Below, in pieces: positions 24,501-29,526 of a stretch of 31,546 nucleotides of DNA (position 1 is its first letter; every line of letters begins with the position of its first letter). The position numbers and the translations under genes are program-made. The stretch is from positions 1 through 31,546 of IMG/VR virus record IMGVR_UViG_3300042478_001714. The stretch is one strand, 5' to 3'. The notes beneath the pieces are model-generated. The model ran no database searches. It was not told where the DNA came from and was given only the letters and a program-made list of their open reading frames with translations. Origin of the DNA: a virus.

Positions 24501-24659
24501 ATGGACGAACGCCTAAGAGAGGCCTTAGAACGCATTGAAATTGCGTTCAAGGCCTCTAAACCATACATACAACTACAAGACGCACTTGTACTGTATAAAT
24601 TTATACTAGAGCTTCCCCCTTCTATATCTCAGTCTGAGAAACATACTGGACAAAACTAA
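24501..24659 (+). CDS. Small protein coupled to the methyltransferase
   Basis: A 52-codon frame starts 1 base after the methyltransferase stop, with AAGGA 6 bases before the ATG. The product is helical and amphipathic (RLREALERIEIAFKASKPYI, then ALVLYKFILELP), with a polar tail. No family is recognised. Tight spacing and the ribosome-binding site argue that it is real and co-expressed; a helper for the methyltransferase is a guess from position. Confidence 0.55.
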   Translation: MDERLREALERIEIAFKASKPYIQLQDALVLYKFILELPPSISQSEKHTGQN

Positions 24660-24674
24660 TCACATAGTGTAGGC

Positions 24675-24694
24675 TCACACATATATGCGTGTGA
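24675..24694 (+). terminator. Weak terminator-like hairpin after the methyltransferase unit
   Basis: TCACAC (24675-24680) pairs with GTGTGA (24689-24694) around an 8-nt loop, 15 bases after the small gene's stop. Only a short TTTT follows a few bases later, with a seven-T run further on (24717-24723), so termination would be inefficient. It is nonetheless the natural end for the methyltransferase transcript. Confidence 0.35.
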
Positions 24695-24742
24695 AGGTTT
24701 TGTGAAGAGGGTGTCATTTTTTTGTCCTGTAAATTTTAGGTA

Positions 24743-24765
24743 CCCCCCCCGTGGGTGCCCCCCCC
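24743..24765. other. Paired C8 tracts separated by GTGGGTG
   Basis: Two runs of eight cytosines (24743-24750 and 24758-24765) flank GTGGGTG in otherwise AT-rich DNA. Such strand-biased GC blocks can form unusual structures on the opposite G-rich strand or mark a nicking/packaging site. No matching known cos sequence is recognised. The exact run lengths could also be affected by sequencing errors in homopolymers. Confidence 0.6.
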
Positions 24766-24869
24766 TAGCGCAAAAAACATTTTGAACGCAAAACGCCGTA
24801 CTCGCATATTAGCTACCTGCAATGTCCACTATAGGTAATAGTGCACTAAGCGTGTCTCTAATAGGTGTG

Positions 24870-25416
24870 ATGAAACCCCTATTTTTATAGGCTTTGGTGA
24901 ACATGCGATGTTGTAATTACGCACACACTAGGTATAAATATATTGGGACTAGAAATATCCGTTATTCGCCGCTATTGTGCAGTAGAAGAAAGAGGCATGC
25001 ACGAAACACCTATATTTATAGGGTTTGGTGCACATCGATGCAGGCAATAAAATATTTACGCACACTCTTTGTCTCTAATGTTGTGCATGTCACGAAACCC
25101 CTATAAACATAGGCTTTGGTGATAGCTAGCGGCATTAAGTATATAAGACATCTTAACTCTTTAATTCGCCCCGTTAGTTCCGGGAGCGTAGCGACCGGAA
25201 CACCACCAACTACAGATGTGGTGCACGAAGTGCACTACAAGAAATGTGTGAGCGAAGCGAACACCATTAGACACTGATACACATTGCAGGCTATCGCGCA
25301 GCGATGCCTACATTAGTGTAAGACATGCAGGCAACACGCCTTTTCTCTCTCTCTATACTCAGTGTAAGAGTTGCAGGCAACCCACCCCCAAACACCTATA
25401 ATCATAGGGTTTCGTG
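24870..25416. repeat. Four-copy hairpin repeat family
   Basis: Four copies share CCTAT-N4-ATAGG stems embedded in AAAC(C/A)CCTAT and ATAGG(C/G)TTT: stems at 24878-24891, 25009-25022, 25100-25113 and 25395-25408. Loops are always four bases but differ (TTTT, ATTT, AAAC, AATC). Copies 1 and 3 have the C/C variant, copies 2 and 4 the A/G variant, where AAAC then pairs with GTTT. Three copies end in TTTGGTG. Further matches outside the stem include GTCTCTAAT before copies 1 and 3 and ACGCACAC after copies 1 and 2. Confidence 0.8.
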
Positions 25417-25631
25417 CAGGCTATCAACTACATTGTTTGTCTCTTATTACTTTCAAAAAATAAATGCAGGCTAACCAATTACGCACTATCCCACTCCCTT
25501 ATTCCTAATCACATGCAGGCTAACCAAATATATTTCTAGTTGTGCCCTGGGGTTTTAGACCTAACCCAAACATGCCATTGAACTTGGGTGTGCGCAGGCT
25601 ATAGTCTGTTGGTGCTGGTTTTTGCAGGCTA
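25039..25631. repeat. Iterated 9-mer TGCAGGC(T/A)A
   Basis: Eight exact copies at 25039, 25285, 25326, 25372, 25415, 25465, 25514 and 25623, plus GCAGGCTA at 25594 and a variant TGCAGGCCA at 25713. From 25285 to 25514 the six copies are spaced 41, 46, 43, 50 and 49 bases. Longer matches extend some pairs: AGTGTAAGA precedes the copies at 25326 and 25372, and the 14-mer TGCAGGCTAACCAA is repeated at 25465 and 25514. The copy at 25514 contains the large terminase stop codon. Confidence 0.85.
25177..25308. repeat. Cluster of hairpins with GCGnAGCG cores
   Basis: GTTCCGG (25177-25183) pairs with CCGGAAC (25195-25201) around the loop GAGCGTAGCGA. GTGT (25246-25249) pairs with ACAC (25261-25264) around GAGCGAAGCGA. 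ATCGC (25293-25297) pairs with GCGAT (25301-25305) with flanking GGC/GCC pairs. A fourth hairpin, GTGCAC-GAA-GTGCAC (25221-25235) extendable to 10 bp, lies between. The near-identical 11-nt loops in different stems suggest a shared recognition element. Confidence 0.7.
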
Positions 25632-27094
25632 CCCGGTGCTACCCACGGACCTACCTGTTGTTGTGCAGCTAGTGTGACTAGCGCCATGCCCATCGATACT
25701 GTGCGGTCATCGTGCAGGCCATTGGAGTGGTCGAACCTGTAAGACGCACCTGTAGTCTTGATAATCAGGCTAGCCATCTCATCAACAAGCGTCTCTTTTC
25801 TCTTACCAACTATGAGTGGTGCAGGGTCAGAATACCACGCTAATTGGTTGTTCACCAATAGGCTTCTAAGTAGTTCAGCCATCTCATAATTACTCTTACC
25901 TGAACGCCCATCAAACCTAGTGCAACGCAGTCGATGTTCATACTTTTGAACTGTAGCTTCCATCTGCCAAGGATCTATAATTATAGTGGGATTGTTGAAG
26001 TTACTAGCTACATTTTCTATCCATGCATCAACACTAGCAATAGGCACTGGGTTAGCTGGTGTACCCTGTATAATGTCCATACGGTCAAGCACATACACAC
26101 CATCCAAATCACGGTGCATAACACACATGGAAGTCCTATCTCTTCTGGCTCCGTAATCAATTGCGGCAACATACTCCATGCCATGCAGACCGGAGGTGGT
26201 GTAAACAAGGTTTTTTGTTGCACCTAGTTGTGTACCCAGGTTGATTTCCTGTCTAGTTAAATAACCTGATTCTTCTGCTGGATCTATCCACACATTGTCT
26301 AGCACTCTACGCGCTACACCATTAGGTAGAAGTGCTCGATCACGCTGTATAGCTTCAGCATCCATCCAAGAGTCCAATTGTCCGGGTGCTTCGTAGACTG
26401 TCCAGCTATCATCAGTCTTTACCTGTTCTAGAATATCATGTTGCCAAGATCCTAATGTACCTGCGTTAGTAATAACAACAAACACAGACCCAGGGCGCTT
26501 CTGTCGCCCTGACCACAATGTATCCCACAGATCTCTTTTCTTCCAATGTGTCACTTCATCACAAACGACCAAATCCGCTCTAAGACCAAATGATGTTGCA
26601 CTATCCGCTGTAAGAATTTTTAATACACCACCTGGGCCTTTTATTCTTTTAGCACCATACACAATGCGTTTAGCTAGCCAAGGATTCAGTCTAGCTTCAG
26701 CTGCCATAGACTCTACTAGTAGTGCTGCCTGATCGAAATCTGCCGCTGCCGCTACGATTTCGATAGGCTTCCTAGAGAATGCTAATACCCAATTACATAT
26801 ACGCGCTAGGCCTGTAGTCTTGTCGTGTCCGCGCGGAAGTGTTTCCCAAGTGTTTCTAGGCCCTTTAAACTCAGGGCGTAAACCACATAGAGCCTCAATA
26901 GGTGATAACATGTAATCAGTACGCTTCCACTGCCAAGGGCGTGCAACATGTGCAAACCTTTTAGGTTCTGGCCGTGAGTCTATGATTACACTTTCTAAAT
27001 AGCCTTTTATACTGCGCGCGGAGGCTAATTCCGCAACAGTATATGCCTGCTGTAATTTTGTCTCAAGTTCTGCTCTAGTCATGCCTGCTGACAT
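25520..27094 (-). CDS. terL: Terminase large subunit
   Basis: This 524-aa protein has both terminase domains. ATPase: LPRGHDKTT (86-94) as Walker A-like loop, DLVVCDE (174-180) as Walker B with catalytic Glu, and VVITNAGT (206-213) as coupling motif. Nuclease of RNase H fold: Asp313 in VAAIDYG, Asp374 in IIIDPWQ and Asp462/463 in GLHDDR. It docks on the portal, pumps DNA into the head and cuts it. The P-loop has Asp where the usual PRGxGK(S/T) has Gly. The start has AAGGAA 8 bases upstream. The small subunit lies 1.5 kb away, separated by other genes including plus-strand ones, instead of adjacent. Confidence 0.93.
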   Translation of the reverse strand: MSAGMTRAELETKLQQAYTVAELASARSIKGYLESVIIDSRPEPKRFAHVARPWQWKRTDYMLSPIEALCGLRPEFKGPRNTWETLPRGHDKTTGLARICNWVLAFSRKPIEIVAAAADFDQAALLVESMAAEARLNPWLAKRIVYGAKRIKGPGGVLKILTADSATSFGLRADLVVCDEVTHWKKRDLWDTLWSGRQKRPGSVFVVITNAGTLGSWQHDILEQVKTDDSWTVYEAPGQLDSWMDAEAIQRDRALLPNGVARRVLDNVWIDPAEESGYLTRQEINLGTQLGATKNLVYTTSGLHGMEYVAAIDYGARRDRTSMCVMHRDLDGVYVLDRMDIIQGTPANPVPIASVDAWIENVASNFNNPTIIIDPWQMEATVQKYEHRLRCTRFDGRSGKSNYEMAELLRSLLVNNQLAWYSDPAPLIVGKRKETLVDEMASLIIKTTGASYRFDHSNGLHDDRTVSMGMALVTLAAQQQVGPWVAPGSLQKPAPTDYSLRTPKFNGMFGLGLKPQGTTRNIFG

Positions 27095-28640: not shown

Positions 28641-29180
28641 CTATCCTTCCTGAGTTTGAGTAAATGTACTGGACTTTTGTATATTATCAGTAATTTGACC
28701 GGATTGCAAGGATAACTGGTCTAAAGGAATAGAAATTCCCCACATACTAGCTTGTTGAATAAGCTCTTGGTCACTCAGTGTCTGATAGGTGATTGTAGAT
28801 TCAGATTTTTTGGGTGCTTCTAATCCTAGTATCTTAATCTGCCTGTCTATGATAGAAAGCGCGGAGTGTAATGACTCCCTATTGCCCTCTTTAGCTTCTT
28901 TATAGTACACCTTTAGCAATTCATCGAATCTAGCTAATGTAAGCGATAGGGCCTTTTCAGCTACTACACTGCCCTCCTTCATCAGGCTCTTGAACTCCCT
29001 TTCCACATACGAATAGGCAGCCTGCCTTGTCACACCCATTGCACGACCAATCTCCGCATATGTTAAGCCCTGTTTTCGCATGGCTATTGCTTCTAGTCTC
29101 CTTTCCTTCTTTATTATTTTGTGCTGTGACATCCTGTTCTTCTGTCCTGCATTGTTCTCGCCTGTGTTGTCCATTGACAT
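28641..29180 (-). CDS. terS: Terminase small subunit
   Basis: The 179-aa protein has a helix-turn-helix at about residues 30-58 (AMRKQGLTYAEIGRAMGVTR, then QAAYSYVE), a middle helical part with ARFDELLKVYYKEAKEGN, and IIDRQIKILGLEAPKK, the usual layout of phage TerS that binds the packaging site and loads the large subunit. The start at 29180 is strongly supported: AGGAG lies 7 bases upstream. That start is 224 bases inside the preceding gene in another frame. The C-terminal 50 residues are Gln/Ser/Thr-rich and probably bind TerL. Confidence 0.85.
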   Translation of the reverse strand: MSMDNTGENNAGQKNRMSQHKIIKKERRLEAIAMRKQGLTYAEIGRAMGVTRQAAYSYVEREFKSLMKEGSVVAEKALSLTLARFDELLKVYYKEAKEGNRESLHSALSIIDRQIKILGLEAPKKSESTITYQTLSDQELIQQASMWGISIPLDQLSLQSGQITDNIQKSSTFTQTQEG

Positions 29181-29526
29181 AACCTTCTCCTAGTTGGGGC
29201 GGAAGTTTACCTTCTGTAACTTGTTCTGCTGTCCACATTGCTGCCATTACATTCCAACAGCACGCAGCTAGGTGGTCCTCATCACGATAGCCCATGCAAT
29301 ACTTAGTTATGTGGCGTATAGCACTGTTGATATAGCGTGCAACTGGTTGACCCTTCTCCCAGTTACGATCACCGTATTTAGCAGCACCTAACTCTGTGTG
29401 AATGGCAATCCTCTCCAGGGCAGAGAAGGGTAATAGGTCGTACCTACCCTTAGCCCACTGAGAGTCACGCACAGAACCACTTGGAAACACCTCACGCTCA
29501 CCACTGTCTTTTATTTCGTATTTCAT
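28957..29526 (-). CDS. DUF5664-type dATP/dGTP diphosphohydrolase-like protein
   Basis: Residues 28-105 match the DUF5664 (dATP/dGTP diphosphohydrolase N-terminal) pattern: RYDLLPFSALERIAIHTELG, AAKYGDRNWEKGQPVARYIN, AIRHITKYCMGYRDEDHLA and CCWNVMAAMW. The paired acidic and His residues fit an all-alpha nucleotide pyrophosphohydrolase of the MazG-like group, which lowers dNTPs or removes unwanted ones. Related MazZ proteins act in phages with 2-aminoadenine genomes. It starts with a one-base overlap of the polymerase stop and GGAG upstream. Residues 116-189 are encoded over the start of the terminase small subunit and form a Cys-rich tail (CGDWSCNGCDKAGCLFVC) absent from the domain itself. Confidence 0.75.
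   Translation of the reverse strand: MKYEIKDSGEREVFPSGSVRDSQWAKGRYDLLPFSALERIAIHTELGAAKYGDRNWEKGQPVARYINSAIRHITKYCMGYRDEDHLAACCWNVMAAMWTAEQVTEGKLPPQLGEGYVNGQHRREQCRTEEQDVTAQNNKEGKETRSNSHAKTGLNICGDWSCNGCDKAGCLFVCGKGVQEPDEGGQCSS

Follow-up and report, generated by a model that had tools for sequence, protein, structure and literature searches.

A near-identical directional palindrome in several phage families is a candidate cis-acting site for the start of DNA replication

Four hairpins beside the terminase gene of a virus fragment from IMG/VR (31.5 kb; the whole stretch analyzed is called the window here) are copies of one directional 23-base element that recurs in at least three phage families, every element-bearing phage being metagenomic. 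A cis-acting site usually belongs to a single phage lineage, since it is read by a phage protein. This element is found near the termini of linear phages that have a family-B polymerase, in terminase-linked non-coding gaps, and, in similar form, at a DnaA-box locus by the primosome-loader gene priA. A host factor would be its simplest reader because no shared proteins were found between the window's 50-kb family and the family-B polymerase phages, the two families covered by our full protein comparison. Because the settings all concern replication or DNA processing, and a host reader is the simplest, we favor, at somewhat less than an even chance, the reading that the four hairpins act in cis as a DNA element for the start of replication, recognized by a host factor.

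The copies lie in a non-coding region of ~0.86 kb (24660-25519) that also holds most of the other repeats and is flanked by converging genes, a small ORF (24501-24659) and the terminase large subunit gene terL (25520-27094, minus strand), whose 3' end is at the region and 0.1 kb from copy 4. The core, CCTAT-N4-ATAGG (CCTATNNNNATAGG), occurs there four times exactly (24878-24891, 25009-25022, 25100-25113, and 25395-25408) and nowhere else in the window, compared with a mean of 0.01 in shuffled windows, none of 100 of which reached four. A longer pattern, GAAACMCCTATN4ATAGGSTTTGGTG, allowed up to two mismatches, has four matches in the window and none in shuffles. Read with equal spacing, the full unit is the near-palindrome AAAC-NN-CTAT-NNNN-ATAG-NN-TTT, and all four copies share a single orientation, on the minus strand. 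Copy 1 (24873-24895; AAACCCCTATTTTTATAGGCTTT on the plus strand), which is conserved in relatives, reads AAAG-CCTAT..ATAGG-GG-TTT on the minus (terL) strand; copy 2 (25004-25026; AAACACCTATATTTATAGGGTTT on the plus strand) has the best fold of the four; copy 3 occupies 25095-25117 (AAACCCCTATAAACATAGGCTTT on the plus strand); and copy 4 (25390-25412; AAACACCTATAATCATAGGGTTT on the plus strand) is kept in the relative with 98% TerL identity and missing from relative L026. The flanks are partly shared as well. TTTGGTG trails copies 1-3 and TTTCGTG copy 4, a TGTCTCTAAT box precedes copies 1 (24853-24862) and 3 (25070-25079), and TTACGCACA lies on the plus strand ~26 nt past copy 1 (24917-24925) and ~34 nt past copy 2 (25056-25064). 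By its letters, TTACGCACA resembles a DnaA box, with one mismatch to the consensus TTATNCACA. Thus, the initial annotation was right to describe four CCTAT/ATAGG hairpins in non-coding DNA by the terminase gene, with shared flanking pieces.

That annotation also took the bases outside the core for two matched variants and argued from the varied loop and constant stem for selection on structure. The alternation itself (C/C, A/G, C/C, A/G) is true of the window, but its coupling is broken in relatives: the 3' arm (ATAGGC, ATAGGG, or ATAGCG) and the 5' pair (CC or CA) vary independently, with A accompanied by C in L026 copy 2 and in L016, and C by G in L026 copy 3 (3' arm ATAGCG). The variants are therefore not coupled, and neither C-C nor A-G is a base pair; calling them matched is not supported. 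Nor was strong covariation found within the window's family, where outer-arm swaps between copies leave folding unweakened. When 29 elements drawn from every source are aligned, the inner pairs C-G, T-A, and T-A are unchanged and AAA/TTT nearly so, and the next pair goes from C-G to A-T in four cellular rows; some covariation is visible in the outer pairs, with 32 double-changed cells versus 19.6 in shuffles, a count inflated by related rows, and an arm-swap folding test across all sources gave p ~0.07. Of the four copies in the window, the second forms a strong fold, the third a moderate one (plus strand), and the first and fourth weak ones. The invariant stem shows conservation of sequence more than compensatory change, and we take the element to be sequence-specific, with dyad symmetry and perhaps acting as an extruded hairpin, rather than a proven covarying RNA. 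Comparison by eye with consensus sequences gave no fit to a CRISPR-repeat mimic, dif site, attC, REP element, sigma-70 promoter, or T7-like promoter.

The place of the array between converging genes and the AAA..TTT arms of its hairpins would suit bidirectional terminators of the terL and small-ORF transcripts, or an RNA element with a regulatory or protective role at their 3' ends. Relatives have another copy after an acetyltransferase gene, and some chance bacterial matches are perfect terminator-like palindromes, both of which fit this explanation. We nevertheless judge it quite unlikely: a terminator scan finds none of the four copies, which have a weak stem without a U-tract and fold poorly in copies 1 and 4; Rfam covariance models have no match in the window or the region; and the copies in family-B polymerase phages stand upstream of inward operons, where a terminator is not needed.

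The region holds further repeated and conserved features. Two C-runs 7 nt apart (GTACCCCCCCCGTGGGTGCCCCCCCC, 24740-24769) are kept in the relatives that cover the region, as is the core of a ACGCCGTACTCG landmark (24793-24804) in those that cover that spot; the C-runs and GCCGTACTC landmark (24740-24804) are retained where the relatives' hairpins differ and are themselves a candidate processed packaging site. Four consecutive mini-hairpins with GNA triloops (25177-25308; GTTCCGG..CCGGAAC, GTGCACGAAGTGCAC, GTGTGAGCGAAGCGAACAC, and GGCTATCGCGCAGCGATGCC) are partly kept in relatives, and two of the four have tandem GA/GA beside a GC-GNA-GC core. About ten TGCAGGC(T)A repeats on the plus strand (25039-25721), interspersed with the other elements, extend into the 3' end of terL. 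Elsewhere in the window, an HTH-domain ORF (28641-29180) overlaps a dATP/dGTP diphosphohydrolase ORF (28957-29526) by ~220 bases in another frame, and both are conserved in relatives.

DnaA-like boxes number three in the window's region (0.7 expected, P 0.035) and five in that of the 98% relative (0.8 expected, P 0.001), and such enrichment is absent in four other relatives; they may point to origin use in the window phage and its nearest relative, not in the others. GC skew in the phages changes weakly near the region, dropping from roughly +0.1/+0.2 to near zero or just below it at 2-4 kb beyond the terL start. A precedent may be found in viruses of Thermocrinis that encode PolA, for which an origin with iterated dyads and stem-loop repeats was proposed in a long intergenic region (PMC7689252). 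The window phage likewise combines a long non-coding region, repeated predicted stem-loops, and a phage-encoded DNA polymerase A. However, the Thermocrinis virus region separates divergent gene blocks and has a strong GC-skew switch (PMC7689252), whereas the window's genes converge, its skew change is weak, and its element is common to several phage families.

A search with TerL recovered 18 loci at 76-100% identity, and these relatives keep synteny in the interval from terL to the small ORF. Apart from the group with 83% TerL identity, in whose syntenic gap no copy was found, relatives at 76-98% retain one to four copies in this interval: four in the 98% relative; three in the ~94% group, of which either one or two have ATAGC and the rest are exact; and one copy, ~60 nt from terL, in the ~76% group. 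The single copy in L010, L016, and L018 is preceded by a TGTCTCTAAT box, as in the window. The gap of the 83% group (L030, L031, L033) is occupied by seven to nine different hairpins, short-looped and variable in stem (for example GTGCAC and TGCGCA). Relatives also have an extra copy far from terL, intergenic and between hairpins that follow the acetyltransferase gene. In L117 (G007:23200-25600) and L096 these hairpins form trains of adjacent units, including a CCTAT element beside GATCACGAAA..TTTCGTGATC, whose outer pair is T-A in one phage and A-T in another; L117 has a tRNA ~1 kb off. Copy numbers that range from zero to four among relatives, and modules around copies 1 and 3 that are duplicates, are what one might expect of functionless duplicated repeats, or of a decoy or recombination target. 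We hold this to be very unlikely in view of the retention of the core while its surroundings diverge, across TerL identities of 100% to 76%, and of the presence of this element at genome ends in unrelated phages.

Those ends came to light through pattern scans for the element, which retrieved contigs without protein homology to the window. Three of them (18.6, 18.7, and 19.3 kb) carry it near both ends, in imperfect inverted terminal repeats of 84-92% identity. Phages of this ~18-19 kb kind encode a DNA_pol_B_2 polymerase and an SU10-like portal and capsid, with gene blocks running inward from both ends; a polymerase search found 15 contigs of 15.8-19.4 kb (members of the group are G001, G013, G014, and loci L202-L216). 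Inverted repeats are detectable in 10 of the 11 phages whose two ends were compared, and the element stands near an end, exact or with one mismatch, in 10 of 11, the eleventh having two mismatches. Exact copies number 18 in 23 ends (9.2 kb) versus 1 in 121.8 kb of interior. The element lies less than 200 nt from genome ends (contig ends may be some bases short of the true ends), mostly within the inverted terminal repeats, oriented inward, and outside and upstream of both inward-reading operons. Most copies have the shorter spacer first on the inward strand, which is the polarity of the window's terL strand. DnaA-like boxes are also numerous at these ends (21 versus 6.3 expected).

In protein-primed genomes the ends are the replication origins, and in adenovirus and phi29-type replication accessory-factor sites lie in the inverted terminal repeats of such linear genomes. 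From the polymerase family and inverted repeats, we infer that the family-B polymerase phages are protein-primed, and, if their replication starts at the ends, the element sits at the origin positions expected in these other genomes. The placement less than 200 nt from both ends, mostly in inverted repeats and in a fixed inward orientation, resembles the adenovirus and phi29 arrangement. Unlike those sites, the element is also found in circularly permuted phages with DNA polymerase A.

A third family, of ~38 kb, has a single copy next to terS-terL, in a gap of 0.7-0.9 kb between divergent genes, and this gap also holds many small hairpins and a C-run. Its nearest named relative is phage DSL-LC05 (TerL 70%), whose recorded host is Gammaproteobacteria. 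Against catalogued phages, BLAST of the window's whole region and of single elements gave no matches or chance-level ones; TerL and the family-B polymerase had no match, the latter among 50,697 records, and the portal had one weak match. Literature searches with the core strings returned unrelated papers, as judged by titles.

An origin of the element as a host chromosomal repeat was not borne out: no occurrence was seen in 399 genomes from the order of Aquitalea or in 295 from Bacteroidia, groups that may not be the host's, and matches across 85,462 species were scattered and near chance. This species-wide scan gave 38 matches, most of them plain palindromes or coding, where ~31 would be expected by chance given the length of the pattern and the size of the database. 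One match, in Gammaproteobacteria bacterium N2D-Bin_4, has exact 26-base identity with one copy from a family-B polymerase phage and is located immediately 5' of priA, with DnaA boxes around it; the locus was picked after the fact from this broad, near-chance scan. Eight more genomes of the same order have, at the homologous locus and 30-50 nt past the DnaA box TTATACACA or TTATGCACA, AAAC-NN-CTRT-ATNT-ATAG-NN-TTT or a close form, and DnaA-box spacings of ~178, 157, and 188 nt recur in several of them; in nine related gammaproteobacterial genomes, then, a palindrome similar to the element has a fixed place between DnaA boxes upstream of priA. Order-wide and class-wide searches place the cellular form mainly at the priA locus of this one order; class-wide matches outside it resemble chance or other kinds of palindrome, and the CTGT form scanned in viral contigs gave four matches, about the chance number. 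The DnaA-box array upstream of priA (L147 6760-7310 and homologues L278-L288 and L312-L316) is a possible origin or DnaA-controlled locus.

The locus upstream of priA looks replication-linked. In the one genome checked (G025:C30), GC skew is negative on both sides, with no skew switch at the locus, and the label oriC would therefore overreach. Primosome assembly sites of the phiX174 pas type are single-strand initiation hairpins bound by PriA. The element might be likened to them in being hairpin-forming and directional, in that host proteins would suffice, and in its cellular copy beside priA. With the DnaA-box arrays of oriC (PMC4285127), the cellular copies share a position between DnaA boxes (TTATCCACA and TTATACACA) and a recurring spacing; unlike oriC, the cellular locus is not a proven origin, and the palindrome does not figure among the oriC elements cited from that review.

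Alternatively, a transcription factor of the host could use the element as an operator or promoter-like site, by which phages would be co-controlled with host replication genes such as priA. Its dyad symmetry and A/T spacer are in keeping with this, and so are its positions 5' of priA in cells, upstream of the operons in family-B polymerase phages, and between divergent genes in the 38-kb family. The window argues otherwise, with copies between converging genes and no gene start near, -35/-10 pairs at the copies not above chance, and four copies distant from any start that would be hard to account for. We regard this explanation as distinctly improbable.

The main rival to replication start is a packaging initiation site (pac or cos), at which TerS or a host DNA-bending protein would bind the iterated palindromes and TerL would cut nearby. 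Repeated sites lie beside the terminase genes at lambda cosB and SPP1 pac, and the window too has repeated sites by its terminase gene. The element adjoins terL in the window and terS-terL in the 38-kb family, occurs at the genome ends of the family-B polymerase phages, and has close by the conserved C-runs and GCCGTACTC landmark, which resemble a processed site. Yet, unlike at pac or cos, no genome end is seen at the array: the five long relatives (48-51 kb) are circularly permuted with respect to one another, and none of the long-relative contigs has a natural end at the array, their ends scattering around the circular map. Furthermore, the element is near-identical among phages with different terminases and, in the two families compared, no common proteins, which is unexpected under recognition by TerS; the priA locus has no packaging role; and one copy in relatives is distant from terL. 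Taken together, these points leave packaging unlikely. The initial annotation had named a packaging site and a replication origin among its possibilities, and both stay as our top two readings; its interpretation as a whole is partly supported.

Under the favored replication-start reading, copies of one directional near-palindromic DNA element would act in cis where replication begins. A host-encoded replication factor would bind the element, whether in duplex form or extruded as a hairpin from single-stranded DNA, and would load the host replisome or primosome there; PriA and the primosome, or a DnaA-associated protein, would be the first candidates. Several tandem copies together with accessory boxes would make up an origin, and that of the window phage would lie in this region. 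Points that weigh against this reading are the group with 83% TerL identity, in which other hairpins stand in place of the element; the weak skew change in the phages and the negative skew to either side of the priA locus; the four relatives in which DnaA-like boxes are not enriched; the post hoc choice of the cellular match; and the extra intergenic copy after the acetyltransferase gene. From comparisons of sequence, then, we infer a common role in replication start, a factor supplied by the host, and an origin of the window phage at this place. We give a low probability to the further proposal that a bacterial palindrome between DnaA boxes upstream of priA was adopted independently by at least three unrelated phage families, whether protein-primed and linear or equipped with their own polymerase A, as a loading site for the host primosome (PriA or DnaA-associated).

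Our analysis also exposes an apparently undescribed group of ~18-19 kb linear tailed phages that combine inverted terminal repeats with a family-B polymerase. If the replication-start reading is true, phages of different families would share a near-identical 23-bp directional site at which their DNA replication docks onto the host, and the element would provide a sequence tag for locating origins in uncultured phages.
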